A stretch of 44,907 nucleotides of DNA from Lactobacillaceae bacterium (GTDB taxonomy: Bacteria; Bacillota; Bacilli; Lactobacillales; Lactobacillaceae): the NCBI GenBank assembly GCA_031289615.1, contig JAITPD010000017.1, forward strand, positions 1 to 44,907, given 5' to 3'. Under the pieces are notes generated by a model. That model had not been told where the DNA came from and searched no databases. It saw only the letters and a list, made by a program, of their open reading frames with translations. The position numbers were made by a program, and so were the translations under genes. This document shows positions 3,623-44,652 of the stretch, in pieces (position 1 is the first letter of the stretch; each line of letters opens with the position of its first letter).

Positions 3623-4621
3623 TTATTTGTCACCTTTTTTAAAAATTTTTTTACCTTTTGATAAAGCGAGCGCCAAGCCATAAAAATGATGAAGATTCAG
3701 CCAAACCAAAAGTTGATACTTTAAATTTTTCTTCCAGTCTTGATAGTACTGGATTTTACGCCCCTGATTTACTTGCAATTGATATGCACGCATCTCTGAA
3801 ATTGCTCTATTTCGTTGCTCTTTTGGTTGCGTAGTTAACTTGCCTAAATGCAAAATATTTGATCCTAATTCGACGTTTACTAGCCGATAAATTTGCGCAT
3901 CATGCTCTGCTGACACTGTTATATTGCGCTCGCTGATGAAATTAAACATCGCGCTGAAGTCTGTCACCAAATCCAAATGATGGTCCAGCGCAACTTTTTC
4001 ATCGTGCGTCAAAGATTTTTGACTGCTACGATACCGATAAAGCGGTTTGTCGTTTGGAATTACAATGACGTCATTCGCTAACAATACAGCCATTGCAGCG
4101 AAACCGACGTCCTCAAACAACGTTCCCGCCGGAAATTTGATTTGCTTTAACAGTGTCGTCGAATACACTTTATTCCAAACGGCTGTGAACATTTTATCAA
4201 TTTCAGCTGACGAAGTATCCCAAATCCATGGTGTAAACTCATTGTCAGCAGAAAAGTACGTGAATGAAAACACTGCCATCACATTTTCGCGACCATTCAA
4301 AGCTTCATCTAAAATTGTTAAGGCGTTTTCTTCCAACAAATCATCCGCATCAACGAACAACGTATATTGGCCGGTTGCCTGTTGAATCCCATGATTTTTT
4401 GCATCAGCTGGTCCAGCATTTTCCTGCCATACGTATTTGATTCGTGAATCTTGGTCGATGAATTTTTTCATAATCACAGAAGTTTCGTCAACCGAACCGT
4501 CATCAATCACGATAATTTCAACATCAGTCAGAGTTTGTTGCAGGATTGAGTTAAGCGTTTCTGCAATTGTTGGTGCTGCATTATACGCGGGAACAATGAT
4601 TGAAAATTTTGTTTTTTGCAT
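3623..4621 (-). CDS. Family 2 glycosyltransferase, first gene of polysaccharide operon
   Basis: The protein is 332 residues when started at 4621. This start is chosen because GAGGGG lies just upstream and the conserved GT2 fold begins at once (FSIIVPAYN at 6-14, IDDGS at 39-43, VDADD at 90-94). The frame stays open back to 4876 through the hexanucleotide repeat, which would add an alternating Gly-Ile stretch. That extension is unlikely to be translated because the extended -10 promoter at 4668 lies inside it. A probable inverting glycosyltransferase of the EpsJ type for surface polysaccharide. Confidence 0.88.
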   Translation of the reverse strand: MQKTKFSIIVPAYNAAPTIAETLNSILQQTLTDVEIIVIDDGSVDETSVIMKKFIDQDSRIKYVWQENAGPADAKNHGIQQATGQYTLFVDADDLLEENALTILDEALNGRENVMAVFSFTYFSADNEFTPWIWDTSSAEIDKMFTAVWNKVYSTTLLKQIKFPAGTLFEDVGFAAMAVLLANDVIVIPNDKPLYRYRSSQKSLTHDEKVALDHHLDLVTDFSAMFNFISERNITVSAEHDAQIYRLVNVELGSNILHLGKLTTQPKEQRNRAISEMRAYQLQVNQGRKIQYYQDWKKNLKYQLLVWLNLHHFYGLALALSKGKKIFKKGDK

Positions 4622-4667
4622 TTTACGTCCCCTCGCACCTCTATCTTTAAAACTGGATAATTTTATG

Positions 4668-4676
4668 ATTATACCA
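4668..4676 (-). promoter_or_regulatory. Extended -10 promoter of the polysaccharide operon
   Basis: On the minus strand this reads TGGTATAAT, a perfect extended -10 (TGn + TATAAT), about 47 bp before the glycosyltransferase start at 4621. No good -35 is visible, as is common for extended -10 promoters. The same nine bases recur before the genes starting at 17447 and 18459. Confidence 0.65.
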
Positions 4677-4760
4677 TGGTGAACAGGTGTTTTTTGTGGC
4701 GACATTGTGAAGAAATATAATAAGTAAGTAAAATTTTTCGGTCGTTTTTTACAAAATTTT

Positions 4761-4843
4761 ATCCCTATCCCTATCCCTATCCCTATCCCTATCCCTATCC
4801 CTATCCCTATCCCTATCCCTATCCCTATCCCTATCCCTATCCC
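4761..4843. repeat. Hexanucleotide microsatellite, (ATCCCT)13.8
   Basis: 83 bases of uninterrupted ATCCCT units (AGGGAT on the minus strand). It lies between two divergent cell-surface transcription units, about 113 bp before the glycine-rich secreted protein and upstream of the polysaccharide promoter. Perfect tracts of this length are prone to slipped-strand length change. A 6-base unit keeps any reading frame but changes promoter spacing. Confidence 0.95.
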
Positions 4844-4854
4844 ATGATTATGAT

Positions 4855-4881
4855 TTGTCAAAAACAAAAAAAGCATATTAA
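4855..4881 (+). promoter_or_regulatory. Tentative promoter of the secreted-protein pair
   Basis: TTGTCA (4855-4860) and TATTAA (4876-4881) are separated by 15 bp, starting 11 bp after the hexamer tract ends. The spacing is short and the match only moderate. If real, the repeat would occupy the UP-element or activator position. Confidence 0.3.
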
Positions 4882-7821: not shown

Positions 7822-8302
7822 AAACACCTGTTCATTTTTCACTTGCGTGGTGGTTTTTCGATAAAGATAGTAAGTGGCGACACGGTCCCATTCGACTTTT
7901 AATTTCGTTAACACGAAATTTAGTCGAATTGGTGCCGCTACCTCGCTTTAAGGAGTGTGCACAAAGGCGTTTTGAGCTGTCGGGATAAGATTATTTTTAA
8001 ATTTGCTACCAAAGCGTAGCGACGTAGTGATTTGGAAAAGAAGCTTATAACCGAAGCTCAGCCTTTGTAAACACGATGATCACCTACTATCATCATTTCA
8101 ATCTACCACGCTTTGAATAAAATGACCATGGTGTTTGCTGGTCAGCGAAGCGATTCTGTCGTCGGATGACCGGCCCTTGCCGAATCTAGGCGAACTTTTT
8201 CACGCGTGCTTTAGCGCCGTGAAATTGGCAAATTATTTTGCCATTCGCCGTGACTCGTGCAGGGCAAATCCGAAACGTAAAGAATCTTTAGCGAAGCTGA
8301 TC
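7822..8302 (-). repeat. Structured interspersed repeat, copy 1 (arcD-arcC gap)
   Basis: About 480 bp filling the gap between arcD and arcC, in the reverse orientation to copies at 12587, 17528 and 23205. Module B (7822-8134) has AAACACCTGTTCA and GACCATGGTGTTT outer arms, then GATAGTA arms, ACAAAGGC / GCCTTTGT arms and two inner hairpins. Module A (8139-8302) has outer arms GGTCAGCGAAGCGATTCTG and CTTTAGCGAAGCTGATC and inner hairpins around GGCAAATTATTTTGCC and TTTTTCACGCG. There is no plausible coding frame. It would be transcribed as part of the arc mRNA. Confidence 0.88.
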
Positions 8303-8318
8303 AAGCAACTTTTATTCA

Positions 8319-10891: not shown

Positions 10892-11159
10892 TTAATCAGC
10901 TTCGCTAAAGATTCTTTACGTTCGGATTTGCCTTGCACGATTCATTATGCGTTTTGTTAGCGATTTATCGCTTACCAAAACACGATCCGCAGTACTTAGT
11001 TGGGCAGCTGTGTCATACAGCTGGGAGACTTAGTAACGGAGGTGGTTCGAATTGCAAAATAATTTGCCAATTTCACGGCACTAAAGCGCGCGTGAAAAAA
11101 TTTTCGCCTAGATTCGGCAAGGGCCGATCATCCGACGACAGAATCGCTCCGCTGATTAA
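10892..11159 (+). repeat. Structured interspersed repeat, copy 2 (arcA-arcB gap), module A with extra hairpins
   Basis: Outer arms TTAATCAGC (10892) and GCTGATTAA (11151) pair perfectly and enclose the module A sequence, including the GATTCTTTACGTTCGGAT arm and the hairpins around GCAAAATAATTTGC and TTTCACGGC. Module B is absent. About 100 bases unique to this copy (about 10951-11052) replace the short GGCGAATGG segment. They form at least two more hairpins (GTTTTG...CAAAAC and CAGCTGT...ACAGCTG), like an insertion at a branch tip. It fills most of the 366-bp gap between arcB and arcA. Confidence 0.85.
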
Positions 11160-11179
11160 TCAAACCAAAACAGAACCCA

Positions 11180-12555: not shown

Positions 12556-12586
12556 AATGGGGCGTTTGTGTTATATAAATAATGCG

Positions 12587-13130
12587 TGGTGCTGATTATA
12601 AATATTGTGCAATGGTTAATCAGCTTCGCTAAAGATTCTTTACGTTCGGATTACCCTGCACGATTCATGGCGAATGGCAAAATAATTTGCCAATTTCACG
12701 GCGCTAAAGCACGCGTGAAAAAGTTCGCCTAGATTCGGCAAGGGCTGGTCATCCGACGACAGAATCGCTTCGCTAATCGGCCTGAGCACAATATTTATAT
12801 GAAACATCTTGTTCATTTTATTGAGGTATGGTGAATTGAAATAATGATAGTAGGTGATTATCGTGTTTACAAAGGCTGAGCTTCGGTTATAAGTCAATTT
12901 TCAGGATAACTACGTCGCTACGCTTTGGTAGTGAACCTGAAAACAGGCTTATCCCGATAGCTCAGAACGCCTTTGTGCACACTCCTTAAAGCGAGGTAGT
13001 AGCACCAATTCGACTAAATTTCGGTCCGCCGAAATTAAAAGCCGAATGGGACCGTGTCTCCACTTACTATCATTATTAAATATTCATCATTCCAGTGAAA
13101 AATGAACAAAGTGTTTTATCACCAGCACCA
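12587..13130 (+). repeat. Structured interspersed repeat, copy 3 (fullest copy, upstream of arcA)
   Basis: The most complete copy, 544 bp, bounded by TGGTGCTG (12587) and CAGCACCA (13123). ATAAATATTGTGC and GCACAATATTTAT enclose module A (about 12616-12780), with paired TTAATCAGC/GCTAATCGG outer arms and inner hairpins around GGCAAAATAATTTGCC and TTTCACGGC...GCGTGAAA. Module B (about 12805-13117) is closed by GTTCATTTT/AAAATGAAC arms and GATAGTA/TACTATC arms. It contains ACAAAGGC/GCCTTTGT, a TCAGGATAA...AACCTGA hairpin and an AATTTCGG/CCGAAATT hairpin. It is not coding. Confidence 0.9.
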
Positions 13131-13177
13131 TGTATTAAATCCACATCACAATATCGTTTATGTTAACTGGGGGAAAT

Positions 13178-14428: not shown

Positions 14429-15220
14429 TTAATTTATTCCCGCCTTAATATTTTCTAATTCAACAATTAAATCATCGTCGTTTGGATTAAAGTCTCTTTC
14501 AATGATCACACAATCTGCATTGGACAATTTAATAATCCGCTTTAATTCTTCAATAGTATCCTGATTGATTGATACTGCGTGTGTATCCTGATAACGATTA
14601 TTAATATTTTCATATCCTGAAACATGAATGACCTTGATTTTATCAAAAGGAAACCCAACCAAATATTCACTCAAGTTCATATTAAAGTGATTAGCAGAGA
14701 CAATTGCGTTTGTTAAATCAAATAGAACTCCGATATTAGGCAAATCATCACAGACTCTTTTGAAAAAATCACTCTCACTCATTGTTGATTCCAACATTTT
14801 CGAGTGATTAACCACGTTCTCAATTAAATATTCTCCGGATTTATAATGCTTATTTATTTCCCGTAAATTATTAATAACTACCTTAAGAGTTGAATTGTTG
14901 TACTCAATGTTCTTAACTGTGGTTAAATACCTATTATCCAAATAAGAGTACGCAATATGATCAGAGTAATACTCCGTTTCAAAAAATTTACCAGTCAAAT
15001 AATAATATCGGTCGTTTTCTGTCTGAACACCTTCACTAGACCCCAATGAAGTTCGTAAACTGTGTAAGCCGAAACTTACTTCTTTTGAATATTTGTTTAA
15101 TGCTATCAACTCATCAGTCGACATTATATCTGGCATAACTTCTATAACATCTACCATATCAACTACTTTATCTATAATTTCACGATGTAATGTAGGGCGA
15201 TAACTAATTCCTATTTTCAT
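14429..15220 (-). CDS. DUF692/MNIO-family iron enzyme (probable peptide-modifying oxidase)
   Basis: 263 residues forming a TIM-barrel pattern of the DUF692 (multinuclear non-heme iron oxidative) family, whose studied members modify ribosomal peptides (MbnB, TglH, ChrH). The expected ligand motifs are present: GLHSLRTSLGS (His53), SDHIAY (His88), LIENVVN (Glu134, Asn135), LFDLTNAIVSA (Asp168), VIHVSGYEN (His199), QDTHAV (Asp212, His214) and IIERD (Glu241). The second His of the usual HLAGH is Tyr203. RBS GGGGAG lies upstream and the gene overlaps the transporter gene by 17 bases. No DUF2063-type partner or clear Cys-bearing precursor is visible. A generic sugar-isomerase annotation would be the main alternative. 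Confidence 0.8.
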   Translation of the reverse strand: MKIGISYRPTLHREIIDKVVDMVDVIEVMPDIMSTDELIALNKYSKEVSFGLHSLRTSLGSSEGVQTENDRYYYLTGKFFETEYYSDHIAYSYLDNRYLTTVKNIEYNNSTLKVVINNLREINKHYKSGEYLIENVVNHSKMLESTMSESDFFKRVCDDLPNIGVLFDLTNAIVSANHFNMNLSEYLVGFPFDKIKVIHVSGYENINNRYQDTHAVSINQDTIEELKRIIKLSNADCVIIERDFNPNDDDLIVELENIKAGIN

Positions 15221-16277
15221 TTTTTTCTCCCCGAATCAATATAACAACTGACACTAGATTAAACAGAACAATAATTGATTCTATGTGTGCAAAGTTCAGA
15301 CTAATCAAAGCAAAAATCAATAAAAATATATTGCTATTAACAGAAAGCATCTGAATCAGAACTTTTTTGTTAATCTGACTATTTTTGGTTAAAAATGAAC
15401 TCCGGACATAAATGCTAGTCAGTAGCGAAGTTGGCACCATTAAACAAAGCATTGAAATTTGTAGTGGAATATTATGCAGATAATAACCTGCCACCAATCC
15501 TAAAGCAACCAGCATAAAAATTAAATAAATCATAACTCGATTAATTTGATGATTTTTTAAAATCTTGAACACTAGCAACGTTATTATTCCAGGCAGTACA
15601 AATGGAACATATATATATTTAGAATAATCCGCATGATGAATGAAATTACTTGCCACTAATGGAATCCAGATAATAGTATTGGCACTTAATAATCCCAAAA
15701 TCCAAAATGACTTTTTCTCACTTAAAGCTTTAATTTTGATGCTTTCACTATGCTCATTTAACACTTCATTTTTAGGAATTAAGAGTAAAATTATCATGAA
15801 AAAGCTAACAGAAATAACCGTGACCATCTTTAACGAATTCAGAGCAATCACTGCACCCAAAAAGAATCCAAATAATGTCGCAGCTGTCTTTAGATTAGCC
15901 ATCTTCATGAAACCAAGTTCGATACTTTTGCTAATTTCCAGAATCCGATTAGAAACATCAAGAGTGATTAACGACGTGCTCATAGTAATCACCATGTAAA
16001 TCAATAGCTTTACTATTATTTGGTCGTTTGGTACCACCCAAGCTGTCAGGCCTGCTACAAGACCTAAGACGCTCCATTTTTTCAATGAAAGCCTACTCAT
16101 CAGTTTTAATTTCGTCAGATCCAAATATATATAAATCGCGACTGCCGCTTCAATTGCTAATATTAGGAGCTTCGTGTTTGCTGCGCCAGTATTTAGCAAA
16201 TTAGTCGTAAATGCAGAATATACTGAGCTATCCAAAAATATTAGGAGTAAATAAAGCAACGTCATTTTAATTTTCAT
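15204..16277 (-). CDS. Multi-pass membrane transporter partner of the MNIO enzyme
   Basis: 357 residues with about 10-11 hydrophobic segments arranged in two halves separated by a charged loop near residues 170-190, in the manner of a short MFS-like carrier. I do not recognise a specific subfamily. A strong GGGAGGG RBS precedes the start at 16277. Translational overlap with the MNIO gene says the two products work together; export of, or protection from, a modified peptide is the simplest inference. Confidence 0.65.
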   Translation of the reverse strand: MKIKMTLLYLLLIFLDSSVYSAFTTNLLNTGAANTKLLILAIEAAVAIYIYLDLTKLKLMSRLSLKKWSVLGLVAGLTAWVVPNDQIIVKLLIYMVITMSTSLITLDVSNRILEISKSIELGFMKMANLKTAATLFGFFLGAVIALNSLKMVTVISVSFFMIILLLIPKNEVLNEHSESIKIKALSEKKSFWILGLLSANTIIWIPLVASNFIHHADYSKYIYVPFVLPGIITLLVFKILKNHQINRVMIYLIFMLVALGLVAGYYLHNIPLQISMLCLMVPTSLLTSIYVRSSFLTKNSQINKKVLIQMLSVNSNIFLLIFALISLNFAHIESIIVLFNLVSVVILIRGEKNENRN

Positions 16278-17485: not shown

Positions 17486-17527
17486 TGTACATTTTTTGCG
17501 AATGCCCAGGATTAAGTTTTCGCATAG

Positions 17528-17943
17528 CGCTTGTTATGATATTCCGCTCAGGTCACTCAGCTTCGCTAAAGATTCTTTACGTTTCGGATTAGCCCTGCAC
17601 GATTCATGTCGAATGGCGAAATAATTCGCCAATTTCACGGCGCTAAAGCACGCGTGAAAAGGTTCGCCTAGATTCGGCAAGGGCTGGCCATCCGACGACA
17701 GAATCGCTATGCTGACCGCCCCTCATGCACAATATTTTATAAAACACCCTGTTAATTTTATTTAAAGCGTGTTGGTTTGAGATGATGATAGTAGGTGATC
17801 AAGCGAGGTAGCGGCACCAATTCGTCTAAATTTCGGTTCGCCGAAATTAAAAGTCGAATGGGACCGTGTCGCCACTTACTATCTTTATCGAAAATACAAC
17901 ACGCAAGTGAAAAATTAACAAGGTGTTTTACAACCAGCCACAC
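17528..17943 (+). repeat. Structured interspersed repeat, copy 4 (short module B)
   Basis: Module A (about 17551-17716) keeps both inner hairpins; the first reads GGCGAA/TTCGCC where other copies have GGCAAA/TTTGCC. Module B (about 17740-17931) is closed by TGTTAATTTT/AAAATTAACA. It lacks the ACAAAGGC/GCCTTTGT arm and its hairpin, going from GATAGTAGGTGATC straight to AAGCGAGGTAGCGGCACC. It fills the gap between the GtrB-like gene and the ArAE-type gene and stops 3 bp from the latter's stop codon. Confidence 0.88.
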
Positions 17944-23204: not shown

Positions 23205-23707
23205 AAGTCATCAGCTCCGCTAAAGATTCTTTACGTTCGGATTTGCCCTGCACGATTCATGGCGAATGGCAAAATAATTTGCCAATTTCACGGCACTAAA
23301 GCGCGCGTGAAAAATTCCGCCTAGATTCGGCAAGGGCTAGCCATCCGACGACGGAATCGCTTCGCTGATCAGCACAAGCACATGGTCATTTCATTCAAAG
23401 CGTGGTTGATTGAGATGATGATAGTAGGTGATCATCGTGTTTACAAAGGCTGAGCTTCGGCTATAAGCCAATTTCCAGATTAACTACGTCGCTACACTTT
23501 GGTAGCAAACCTGAAAATTGAACTTATCCCGACAGCTCATAACGCCTTTGTACATACTCCTTAAAGCGAGGTAGCGGCACCAATTCGACTAAATTTCGGC
23601 TACCGAAATTAAAAGTCGAATGGGACCGTGTCGCCACTTACTATCATTATTGAAAAGCCACCACGCAAGTGAAAAATGACCCATGTGTTTATGATTTTTT
23701 ATCAGCA
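23205..23707 (+). repeat. Structured interspersed repeat, copy 5 (secA-prfB gap)
   Basis: About 500 bp. Module A (about 23209-23372) has CATCAGC/GCTGATC outer arms and both inner hairpins. Module B (about 23379-23690) is closed by CACATGGTCATTT/AAATGACCCATGTG, whose bases differ from those of copies 3 and 4 but still pair. It has full inner arms (ACAAAGGC/GCCTTTGT and an AATTTCGG/CCGAAATT hairpin). It lies in the 652-bp gap between secA and prfB, which usually are close neighbours in Firmicutes. No coding frame. Confidence 0.9.
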
Positions 23708-29708: not shown

Positions 29709-29988
29709 TAGTTATTCAACACGTTGGTCACTTTTTTAAGCGTGCTGGTTAAATTAAATGACCAACGTGTTGCATGAAAATATTGTGTTGCGTGAGAAAC
29801 AGCGAAGCGATTCTGTCGTCGAATGATAGTACCTGCCGAATCTGAATGAACCATGGCACTAACAGCAGACCCAACAGTTAGTGTCATTGGCGAATTATTT
29901 CGACTTTCATTCAGATTCGTGTAGGTCCATTCGAACGTAAAGAATCTATAGCGAAGCTGGTTCACTACTCCACAATATTTCATAACTA
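29709..29988 (-). repeat. Structured interspersed repeat, copy 6 (divergent sequence, same fold)
   Basis: CTAGTTAT/ATAACTAG bound the element. A minimal module B (29720-29775) consists of CAACACGTTGGTCA paired with TGACCAACGTGTTG. AATATTGTG/CACAATATT then enclose module A, whose outer arms match other copies (AGCGAAGCGATTCTGTCGTC and AAAGAATCTATAGCGAAGC). Its interior differs: the stem CCGAATCTGAATGAA/TTTCATTCAGATTCG and the hairpin CACTAAC/GTTAGTG replace the usual bases in the same places. It fills the uppP-DUF4097 gap. Confidence 0.8.
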
Positions 29989-30069
29989 GCCCTCTGCGTT
30001 ATAGCAAATATTTGTATTATACATATGTTTCTTTGTGTTAGCCCATCAATACCTTTGAGTTTTACATAA

Positions 30070-31748: not shown

Positions 31749-31817
31749 TCGGTCCTCCCCGTTGATTTATGGTTTTCATTTGTTTGATTCGAAACTGCTT
31801 TATCTAACGTGTTGTGT

Positions 31818-31893
31818 TAGTTATGCAATATCTTGGTCATTTCATTTAAAATCCACCACGTAAGTTAAAAATGACCAAGGTGTTGCATAGCTA
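31818..31893. repeat. Structured interspersed repeat, copy 7 (minimal)
   Basis: Only the outer stem of module B is present: TAGTTATGCAA and ATCTTGGTCATTT pair with AAATGACCAAGGTG and TTGCATAGCTA. The loop carries TCCACCACGTAAGTTA, which matches the arm sequence of larger copies. It lies between the DUF1700 and LCP genes. Confidence 0.75.
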
Positions 31894-31970
31894 GCATTCA
31901 CTCTATCTAATATAATACACTATTCGTAAGCGAGTTTGTTTGATTTTGCTTTTATCGCCTCACAGAAACA

Positions 31971-33370: not shown

Positions 33371-33463
33371 GGTCACTAATGCATTATTTTGCCCCTTGGT
33401 CATTTTTCACTGGTGTGGAGGCTTTTCAAATATTGAAATTTGCTTGGTTAGTGAAGCTACTCA
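33371..33463. repeat. Decayed relic of the structured repeat (copy 8)
   Basis: CCTTGGTCATTTTTCACTGG matches one outer arm of module B in other copies but its partner arm is missing. Downstream, TTTGCTTG and CAAGCAAA enclose GTTAGTGAAGCTA, similar to a module A end. Judged a relic from this partial similarity only. Confidence 0.45.
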
Positions 33464-33500
33464 AGCAAAGTTTAATATTACACTACTATCACTACGCCTT

Positions 33501-41432: not shown

Positions 41433-42302
41433 TCACTTTCGATCCTTAAATACATAGTTAAAAGTTAAATTAAATAAACCTAATAATACTGAGATAATAA
41501 ACACATAACCTGTTGTTATATCAAAACTAGGATTTTTACCAAAAAGAGATTGGGTAACTCCATACTTATTGTAAATCACATTAAAAATATTATTGTTGCC
41601 GATATTGTTTAAATTTTTTAGAAGAAGCTGCCTGTATAAACTAGCTGTACCAAACCCTGGCCAGTAGTTGATAAAAGTTGCAAAAGTTTTTGGTAAACTT
41701 GATATTAGAATATATGAGCCAGACATAAAGCCTGACAAAGTACCAACAATCGCAGAAATTGATGCAAAACTACTTGTAGTTTTTAATATTCTAAAAAAAA
41801 GTGATGAAAAGCAAACGCCAAAGAGGCAGGAAATTATGTTAATCCCCATAATTTTTAAAATAATTGTGCTTTCTAGATCAATACTTACCTGTAACCTGAT
41901 ATAAATTATACAAATAAAAGTAAAAATAGTAGTGGTTAAAAATGATTCAACAAATGCTGTAATCATATATCCAATCTGAGCTAAATTGCCAAGTGTTCCA
42001 TTTATCTCAAAATCAATTAAAGAGTCATTTTGCAGATCCTGAACGTATTGAGAAAATCCTGCAACAGAACTTGTCAATGCAACAATAGCAATCAAACCAC
42101 CGATCATCCATAAATCTAGAAATGCTTCCCTGTTAATGAACTGCGGAATTCCTGAAATTAATGCATTTCTCAAAAAAAATACATATATTATTAATCCAAT
42201 AAAGGCTCCCAATAATGAAAAAAATAGCCCAATCTTGTCTTGACGGTAAATGTTTAAATTCCTTTTTATAAAATTACTCATGATTTTAATCTGTTCTTCC
42301 AT
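41433..42302 (-). CDS. ABC-2 type permease of the azoline-peptide locus
   Basis: 289 residues with six membrane segments and no ATPase domain, typical of ABC-2 exporter permeases. It opens with a short cytoplasmic arm (MEEQIKIMSNFIKRNL) and has a conserved-looking LYRQLLLKNL loop. Its start overlaps the ATPase gene by 17 bases. In streptolysin S-type clusters the equivalent position holds sagH/sagI, which export the mature toxin; only one permease gene is present here. Confidence 0.82.
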   Translation of the reverse strand: MEEQIKIMSNFIKRNLNIYRQDKIGLFFSLLGAFIGLIIYVFFLRNALISGIPQFINREAFLDLWMIGGLIAIVALTSSVAGFSQYVQDLQNDSLIDFEINGTLGNLAQIGYMITAFVESFLTTTIFTFICIIYIRLQVSIDLESTIILKIMGINIISCLFGVCFSSLFFRILKTTSSFASISAIVGTLSGFMSGSYILISSLPKTFATFINYWPGFGTASLYRQLLLKNLNNIGNNNIFNVIYNKYGVTQSLFGKNPSFDITTGYVFIISVLLGLFNLTFNYVFKDRK

Positions 42303-43152
42303 TCAGTATGATTGAGAAAAAATCGTTCAGTGTTGCTTCTTCCACCCTAAACTCAAAGTTACATCCCATCTGTCTTAAATAATTTAGTTTATCTAGGGCT
42401 AAATTCGAGCTAGTAAATGTTTGAGTGTAACAATCTTCATCATTTTTAAAGCCGTTTTCACTAAATATTAAAGAATCTTCAGTTAAATCAGGTTTTTCAA
42501 TATATACTTTAACTTTTGGGATTTTGCTTATGAAATCTTCTGAGCTTCCATCAAAAATAATTTGACCTTTGTTCAAGAAAATGATCCTTGTTGCATATCG
42601 AATTTCTTCACGATAATGCGTAGTATAAATTAAGCTATTATTCTTGTTGTTGCAATATTTATTAACGTTATTCCAAAAATCTTTCCTAGCCTCTACATCC
42701 ATCCCAGTAGTTGCTTCATCCATCAGTAATAAATTAGGGTTCATCGCAATAACTCTTATTACATCAACCGCTCTCTTTTGTCCGCCGGATAAAGATCCAT
42801 ACAATTGGCTAGGGTCGTTCAAAACATCAGATTTTTTAATAAGATTAATCGCTCGTTTAAATTCTTTTTTATCGCCCAAACGGTGTTTTAAATTTTCGAA
42901 AACTGTCAATTCTTTATCTAAAATACTTTTTTGAAAAATCATTGCTTTCTTTAGCCCGTTTGGAATATAAATCTCACCATGGTTAACCCCATATACGCCA
43001 CTAATAATGTTCAACAACGTAGATTTACCTGCTCCGTTGGCTCCTAAAATAGCAATTCTTTCATTTTTGGATACATCAAATGAAATATCTTTTAAAATAG
43101 TAGTTCCACCAATTTCCTTACTTATTGATTTGGCACTAATAATACGTTCCAT
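42286..43152 (-). CDS. ABC transporter ATPase of the azoline-peptide locus
   Basis: 288 residues: Walker A GANGAGKST (37-45), signature SLSGGQKR near 119 and Walker B LLLMDEAT near 142. A C-terminal extension of about 70 residues resembles that of SagG/CcmA-type exporters rather than uptake systems. AGGAGTAACCAGTAATG marks the start, which shares one base with the CPBP stop. It powers the following permease, presumably to export a modified peptide. Confidence 0.9.
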   Translation of the reverse strand: MERIISAKSISKEIGGTTILKDISFDVSKNERIAILGANGAGKSTLLNIISGVYGVNHGEIYIPNGLKKAMIFQKSILDKELTVFENLKHRLGDKKEFKRAINLIKKSDVLNDPSQLYGSLSGGQKRAVDVIRVIAMNPNLLLMDEATTGMDVEARKDFWNNVNKYCNNKNNSLIYTTHYREEIRYATRIIFLNKGQIIFDGSSEDFISKIPKVKVYIEKPDLTEDSLIFSENGFKNDEDCYTQTFTSSNLALDKLNYLRQMGCNFEFRVEEATLNDFFSIILNGRTD

Positions 43153-43715
43153 TACTGGTTACTCCTTTTTAAAAAAAATAAAACATTAAAGAAAACATGA
43201 CACAAAATACAAATTAACACCTGTCCAGTAACCACTAATATGCTGCTAAATATTATCCCCTGAATTGACTTAACTAAAGATTTGCGTCCTTGATAGGCAA
43301 GATGTGAAATTGCAAACGCTAAACTAGAAATAATTATAAATTCCCACTTAAACAATGATAATTTCATGCAGATACTCATCAAAAGAGACCTATAATTAAG
43401 CTCCTCAAATAATGGAAAAAGAAAAATAAATGTAAACTTTCTAAATATCACAGTGTTGATCCAAATTAAATTAATTTTTTTTTGATAGATCATAGATTCA
43501 GTACAAAAAGGAATAATGGTCCCCACAAGCAATAATGATATTAGCATCAGAAAATTAATACCATCAGTAACTTGAAGAATAAATAATACTGATAAATATA
43601 CCCCTGCAGATGAAATTCGTTTAAGTATAGGAATTCTTTTAACTAATGGAATCAGCATCCCTGGAGAAATAGCTAGCACTCCAATTAAATAATTAAGCCA
43701 TTGGATGCTCAACAT
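43152..43715 (-). CDS. CPBP-family intramembrane protease (SagE-like)
   Basis: 187 residues with six or so membrane segments and the three CPBP/Abi motifs: EELNYRS (Glu104, Glu105, Arg109), FAISHLAY (His138) and CHVFFN (His173, Asn177). In LAP clusters the homologue SagE is thought to cleave the leader or give immunity. Its start lies within the 3' end of the YcaO gene (overlap 23 bases). Both motifs and place support that role over a stand-alone abortive-infection protein. Confidence 0.88.
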   Translation of the reverse strand: MLSIQWLNYLIGVLAISPGMLIPLVKRIPILKRISSAGVYLSVLFILQVTDGINFLMLISLLLVGTIIPFCTESMIYQKKINLIWINTVIFRKFTFIFLFPLFEELNYRSLLMSICMKLSLFKWEFIIISSLAFAISHLAYQGRKSLVKSIQGIIFSSILVVTGQVLICILCHVFFNVLFFLKRSNQ

Positions 43716-44652
43716 TATTAATAATTCCTCCTAATTCCATGTATCTTGGATGTTTTTTTGGTGGAAAACTTGGTAAAGCTACAGGCAACAGCATCGGAGC
43801 TACAATTCTCGACACATTAACGCTCATTCCATCAAATTCATTAGGCGTAATATTTAAATATCCACACCATTTTAATAGATTAGACATGCTATAAATTAAT
43901 GTTTCCAAATTATTGACCTTACTTGTATTCCATTTCGTAAATGCTCTATGATTTATATCTGGCTTATCATGAACAACGTAATAAGCCACATTTTTATCTA
44001 AATTATTCATTTTTCCAATATGCTCAGATGACTTTACTAAAGACTCTGGTGAAAGCCAACTTAAATTAATTGAGTATGACAATACGGCCAGAGTCTCCAT
44101 AAAGCTACGATATATTGCACGATTCCTATCGTATGCCCCTTGAACTCCCACAGTATATCGAGGCCGTTGGTTATTTTTCCCAATTATTTCACATACAATA
44201 ACCCATATTGATTTATCAAATGAAATATCCGTAAATTTAACTTCAAATTTTGAAAAAAACTCATCCATTCCATTTTTAAAATAGCTATTCATGAATTCTT
44301 GTACATCTATACTTATATCTTTTCCAGCATATCCTCCGTACCACCATAAATTATACGAATCCATTTGGATACATTCAATTAATGCATTCTCTAATGATCT
44401 TTCCACATTTTCATGAGAAGCGGTCCCTGTTGATACTGCACTCTTTGTAATTACTTTTTCATTTCTATTATTTAATTCATTGGTTGAGTGAAGTCTCACA
44501 AACTGTAATGGCTCATAAATAAACTCATTTGGTGACAGCAGTTTGATCATTTTTACCCAAGTTACTTTATCAAAATCGCTTAATAACACATCATCACTTA
44601 CATTTATATAATTAAGTGGCAAAACACTGCTTTCACAAAAAGTATCAACCAT
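43693..44652 (-). CDS. YcaO-domain protein, N-terminally short (SagD-like)
   Basis: 319 residues. It has the later YcaO motifs: STGTASHENVERSLENALIE with Glu93, then IQMDS; GAYDRNRAIYRSFMETLAV (about 172-190); and a Pro-rich C-terminal region FPPKKHPRY, ending HPMA. YcaO proteins use ATP to turn Cys, Ser or Thr into azolines in peptide toxins. The first family motif (SxGKG...SAxxExxER), which binds Mg-ATP, should lie N-terminal to residue 60 and is not there; full SagD proteins are about 450 residues. Frame upstream is closed by TAA 24 bases before the start, and the IS end lies 91 bp away. The gene may be a decayed or split copy. The usual IERD is IQMD. Confidence 0.78.
   Translation of the reverse strand: MVDTFCESSVLPLNYINVSDDVLLSDFDKVTWVKMIKLLSPNEFIYEPLQFVRLHSTNELNNRNEKVITKSAVSTGTASHENVERSLENALIECIQMDSYNLWWYGGYAGKDISIDVQEFMNSYFKNGMDEFFSKFEVKFTDISFDKSIWVIVCEIIGKNNQRPRYTVGVQGAYDRNRAIYRSFMETLAVLSYSINLSWLSPESLVKSSEHIGKMNNLDKNVAYYVVHDKPDINHRAFTKWNTSKVNNLETLIYSMSNLLKWCGYLNITPNEFDGMSVNVSRIVAPMLLPVALPSFPPKKHPRYMELGGIINNVEHPMA

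Follow-up and report, generated by a model that had tools for sequence, protein, structure and literature searches.

Among described repeats, the pneumococcal BOX elements appear to be the nearest known kind to the family analysed here, followed by the REPINs, as far as the excerpts of the published accounts allow such a ranking. BOX elements of Streptococcus pneumoniae are reported to be modular, intergenic and base-paired, with inverted ends, target duplications and slow new insertions, and 125 of them with sizes of 67-637 bp were counted in one genome (PMC3049150). REP sequences and REPINs are described as repeated, extragenic and hairpin-forming with compensatory changes in the hairpins (PMC3116915), and in a survey of stem-loop repeats double-hairpin families were predicted on both strands (PMC2267715).

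The repeat described here lies in several copies in a window of 44,907 nt, which is the whole stretch of DNA analysed. An earlier note had called it larger than BOX/RUP-type elements, a statement that the published BOX range of 67-637 bp contradicts (PMC3049150). As far as the accounts were compared, it is modular, intergenic and base-paired with terminal inverted repeats and target duplications like BOX, but its hairpins A, B, C and D are set into one another, whereas BOX carries tandem boxB units, and its ends are its least conserved part. With the REPINs, in the excerpts compared, it shares the extragenic position, the repetition, the hairpins and their compensatory changes; unlike them it is much larger, has target duplications, lacks a Y1 transposase match in the genome and is invariant in its interior, not in an end motif. 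In the window, the boxA primer, in what we take to be its sequence, found no match with up to three mismatches. GOLLD and ROOL, large ornate RNAs of the Lactobacillales and presumably families in Rfam, are also large folded non-coding sequences, and the host of the present repeat is probably a member of the Lactobacillaceae as judged from its gene content; in contrast to these RNAs, as partly compared, the present repeat has no Rfam match, occurs in about 160 or more copies and has shown no strand preference. Decayed ends around an invariant core are absent from the compared passages on BOX, REPINs and stem-loop repeats, and searches of the literature, mostly outside subscription journals and preprints, brought up no description of this family.

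Copies in the window and in the genome

All eight places proposed in the earlier note are real copies of the repeat, as supported by nhmmer matches to domain A, matches to the end sequences and reading by eye. The reference full copy with ends and modules A, B and C spans 12583..13134 on the plus strand (outer limits by eye from the end consensus). Its domain A was matched by nhmmer at 12617-12783(+), and the conserved core of this domain, an irregular hairpin with a three-way junction, lies at 12621..12775(+), as taken from the conservation profile of 121 copies with limits set by eye. The optional module C, a long hairpin, was placed at 12860..12990(+) by its alignment, and the tip of module B at 12984..13070(+) by the alignment of B tips, of which 83 copies entered the conservation profile. 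The two adjoining cloverleaves described before are to be corrected to this irregular hairpin for A and, for B, to a long stem that has a tip of its own and may bear an additional hairpin (C) of about 120 nt. Of the sequences described before, TGGTGCTG/CAGCACCA and the ATAAATATTGTGC stem are variable outer parts and do not represent the conserved part.

Two further full copies with A, B and C are located at 7822..8308 on the minus strand (domain A by nhmmer at 8137-8304(-)) and, between secA and prfB, at 23207..23690 on the plus strand (domain A by nhmmer at 23210-23374(+)), while the copy at 17521..17942(+) possesses A and B without C (domain A by nhmmer at 17556-17718(+); end match). In the copy at 10893..11162(+; nhmmer), given as starting at 10892 and lacking B, the B tip is indeed absent, but an extra insert D splits domain A. 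The divergent copy at 29709..29998(-) consists of domain A at 29797-29961(-), matched by nhmmer, and an end match at 29981-29998. The minimal copy at 31808 (31805..31912, plus strand; end match, limits by eye) contains two ends and a short B stem only, and 33371..33498(-; end match and by eye) is a deletion relic from which most of domain A is gone. The ORFs overlapping the copies in the window are 61-108 aa long.

A covariance model of domain A (R1, built from 31 copies) matched all 150 candidates scored in the same genome, out of 1326 candidates at the first look, and blastn returned tens of copies, which shows that the family far exceeds the window. Domain A was present at 158 places of the stretches fetched, among which the B tip was recognised in 86, hairpin C in 24 and insert D in 13, and together these places span roughly 59 kb or 2.9% of the 2.0-Mb genome. 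Around separately found end sequences 14 more places were identified, ten with domain A and four truncated, so that the family comprises at least 172 domain-A places, or at least 159 without the 13 that are partial and lie at contig ends, where in some cases a single copy may have been counted once from each of two contigs. Further copies may exist. By eye, deletion derivatives, remnants of little more than the ends and a copy with B only were seen, and the copy at L214:780-890 has lost the upper half of its domain A between short repeats, so that a shorter hairpin is left.

Elsewhere in the window, 14 perfect TATCCC hexamers at 4760-4843 lie in frame near the start of an ORF (3623-4876, minus strand) that looks glycosyltransferase-like by eye; they encode a Gly-Ile run that could vary in length between strains. 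The two contig ends, 1-171 and 44737-44907, form an inverted repeat pair of 98% identity, so it was probably a repeated element that interrupted the assembly, and several other contigs break inside A repeats. An MbnB/TglH/ChrH-type RiPP modification enzyme is encoded beside a protein without Pfam match at 14429-16277, and what looks like a second RiPP cluster at 41433-44652 combines a YcaO protein (profile match) with, by eye, a CAAX-protease-like protein and an ABC transporter pair.

Fold, strand and orientation to genes

The predicted fold of the reference copy has an energy of -214.9 kcal/mol on the plus and -218.4 kcal/mol on the minus strand, with z-scores of -12.8 and -15.8, and was reached by none of the 100 shuffles on either strand. 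Standard pairs make up 97.9% of the paired cells in A and 97.2% in C, and the covariation scores of both were reached by 0 of 500 shuffles; the structures were derived from the same alignments in which they were tested and are by this favoured over slid controls. Paired substitutions, named in the earlier note as the property to be checked, therefore exceed the shuffles in A and in C. Other counts for C are less favourable: the number of pairs changed on both sides was reached by 25 of 500 shuffles, and further pair types lie below nearly all of them (494 of 500 at least as high). Parsimony on the core tree of the 121 copies gave 70 double Watson-Crick changes. The strongest linkage within the core (columns 109-118, r2 0.89) and a linkage over 58 nt (100-158, r2 0.23) both correspond to predicted base pairs, and the outer arms match better within than between copies (8.5 vs 7.5; 0 of 200 shuffles, 133 copies).

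Such a complex fold, in which A has internal loops that are conserved and peripheral hairpins that vary, could belong to a structured RNA, an option also raised in the earlier note, or to a riboswitch-like leader, produced at many loci from a single strand. This reading is regarded here as unlikely. It is in line with this reading that the consensus of A folds slightly better on the minus strand (-128.9 vs -124.8 kcal/mol) and that changes in A and C lean to G·U on that strand: on the plus strand, A shows 180 A·C vs 123 G·U cells (101 vs 75 events) and C 16 vs 10. B leans to the opposite side, with 27 A·C vs 62 G·U cells on the plus strand (in a fold without the left half of the B stem), and there is no consistent strand preference of these changes across A, B and C. 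The orientation to genes, called as simple ORFs of at least 90 aa, is random as well: 54 of the 158 copies agree with both neighbours and 52 oppose both, 15 and 9 are in the two mixed settings and 28 have one side unknown, so that the consistent orientation to a regulated gene that characterises cis-regulatory RNA leaders was not found among these copies. The first impression that the elements lie upstream of co-directional genes was refuted by these counts. Conservation does not depend on orientation either, with 0.98 deviations per 100 conserved sites in copies oriented like both neighbours (49 copies) vs 1.15 in those opposite to both (48 copies); the values for divergent (13) and convergent (8) settings are 1.54 and 0.62, respectively. 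An own promoter next to A was considered and rejected, as the flanks, where it would lie, are poorly conserved. In the window, Rfam 15 detected only a tRNA, which lies outside the repeats; no family reaches its threshold in the repeats, the best match near the reference copy having 19.7 bits against a threshold of 50, and a riboswitch or T-box, to which a motif in the B tip had pointed, has no Rfam support. Since the G·U/A·C changes are not consistently skewed and the orientation is random, the data do not support a structured RNA of one given strand. The nearly equal folding of the two strands hints more at palindromic DNA, and DNA hairpins or an RNA of either strand are possible.

Transposon ends and distribution among relatives

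The copies have inverted ends in common, CGCGTKGTGCTAGTTRTG, which matched 116 times in the genome compared with 15 matches of a reversed control pattern. Both ends were recognised at threshold in 32 of the 141 copies considered, and in eight of these 32 at least 7 identical nucleotides stand outside the ends, while 500 shuffles gave a mean of 1.3 such copies and a maximum of 6. The clear target duplications are 9 bp long and AT-rich; a test at a fixed offset was weaker (best z 2.7). The family thus shows both the terminal inverted repeats and the target site duplications of a MITE, and on account of the shared inverted ends and of target duplications of roughly 9 bp it is supported to be a non-autonomous transposon with modules A, B, C and D, as had been suggested as one option. 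Two points count against this transposon part: most of the 32 copies tested have no recognisable target duplication, and no transposase with these ends was found. An autonomous relative or IS sharing the ends, proposed earlier as a check, was not seen among the end matches examined, for which under a third of the draft genome was read.

In its many structured intergenic copies and their compensatory changes the family resembles the REPINs (PMC3116915, as far as its excerpts describe them), and it might accordingly be a still-active hairpin element that is moved as single-stranded DNA and whose copies slowly arise and disappear in balance. This is very improbable. The cognate Y1 transposase of the REPIN/RAYT system was not found in the genome, a 95.6% complete draft, with 0 matches to PF01797 in a search whose control was positive in 5 of 14 known genomes, and the target duplications point to another mechanism. 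Recent sister copies are lacking too: among the 121 copies compared no near-identical pair was seen, and in 22 pairs with 98-99% identical cores the flanks are 49% identical on average, like those of all pairs.

The search of related lactic acid bacteria that had been proposed gave no sign of the repeat in the relatives searched, at the sensitivity used. R1 had no match in the genus (27 other genomes, E-values up to 1), the family (396 other genomes) or the phylum (397 other genomes; 7 candidates scored per genome in the latter two), and a model of the B tip (R2) had none in 394 other genomes of the order (11 candidates scored per genome). A DNA search of 59 relatives, with up to 10 candidates scored per genome, gave a single match of 29 bp. 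The plasmids and phages searched contained no match, nor did viral contigs scanned with one 20-nt pattern; a pattern scan of contigs had at least four metagenome-assembled contigs of unrelated groups among the matches listed, which is about chance by estimate. Identity to the nearest genomes is 81% over secA. Between secA and prfB, the spacer measures 655 nt here and 69-206 nt in ten relatives; in the eleventh and closest one the ATG of prfB follows secA after about 111-112 nt by eye, and in all 11 the copy at 23207..23690 is absent. One relative (L235) has, by eye, a different, hairpin-rich insert of roughly 120 bp in this spacer.

A conserved core between decayed flanks

The earlier note missed the pattern that sets this family apart, i.e., that the ends are decayed and the interior is conserved. 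The 121 complete copies that lack insert D have a consensus frequency of 0.40-0.81 over the nine columns preceding the core; past the CAGC at which the core is entered it is mostly 0.93-1.00, and on the right side it falls from 0.95-0.99 at GCTG to 0.5-0.86. This decay may be overstated because the flanks align poorly, and as it was the core by which most domain-A copies were detected, decayed ones are less likely to be seen. The degree to which a core is conserved does not follow the decay of its flanks (rho 0.03, 121 copies). Within subfamily 1 (104 copies), diversity is below 0.05 in 92 of 155 core columns and in none of 61 flank columns, 19 core columns are no less diverse than the least variable flank column (0.21), and the top core sites, with 0.64 and 0.58, come up to the flank mean of 0.54. 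Transitions and transversions number 93/40 cells in the conserved core, 722/645 in the variable core and 1070/1332 in the flanks, corresponding to a ratio of 2.3 in the conserved columns and near 1 in the others, where cells include shared ancestry and are not independent events. The B tip (83 copies) has a nearly invariant base and a variable apical loop, and its conservation is lost toward the end.

One explanation is concerted evolution: the copies would have no individual role, and frequent recombination among the homologous cores, perhaps begun by cleavage of DNA hairpins, would homogenise A and B and let the flanks drift. We consider this doubtful. In its favour, variants of A are not significantly associated with variants of B in the elements (four tests, p 0.06-0.59), linkage within the core fades beyond about 15 nt to a mean r2 of 0.01-0.02, and core and flank histories are uncoupled. 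Three truncated fragments of domain A that cannot form the whole fold are conserved as well, with 1 of 31 positions off the left consensus motif. Homogenisation should treat the core columns alike, yet these fall into a nearly invariant and a flank-like class; neighbouring copies are no more alike (0.896 for 38 pairs closer than 8 kb) than copies on other contigs (0.910 for 5246 pairs), and subfamily 2 and the G-C hairpin, two variants of A, are strongly linked (p 4e-9). Gene conversion thus explains why linkage is short-ranged and why truncated fragments are conserved, but it leaves the two classes of core columns unexplained.

Selection on the fold in place fits better than simple youth or gene conversion, and it fits best because old insertions hold free sites inside an otherwise invariant core. 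With a probability of roughly 0.55, the family goes back to an old burst of a modular miniature transposon that is now largely immobile and in which selection maintains the folded interior at many insertion sites. A putative DDE-type transposase would have acted in trans on the ends, and this burst would have ended long ago, since near-identical sisters are missing among the 121 copies compared. A cellular factor would bind or process the folds of A and B, be they single-stranded DNA, cruciform DNA or RNA read from either strand, and selection would for this reason act against mutated copies. Our working guess is a site that such a putative factor reads as a DNA hairpin or as RNA, from whichever strand the RNA comes. 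Selection is hard to reconcile with more than 100 separate sites that have no orientation preference, the conserved truncated fragments fit youth or homogenisation better, and other strong short-range linkages (94-98, 171/174/178 and 133-141) are not predicted pairs. Tentatively, and as a possibility we would not lean on, a species-specific burst may have been followed by the joint domestication of well over a hundred insertions, each folded core being individually selected in either orientation, as DNA hairpin or RNA, as a site for a putative structure-reading factor.

A bacterial miniature repeat that has stopped moving would usually be expected to decay, and here the ends have decayed while a folding core of about 155 nt was kept at more than 100 sites in one genome. 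If concerted evolution is true, this would be an unusually strong homogenisation of dispersed short repeats; if selection is true, it would be the mass domestication of a transposon within one species.
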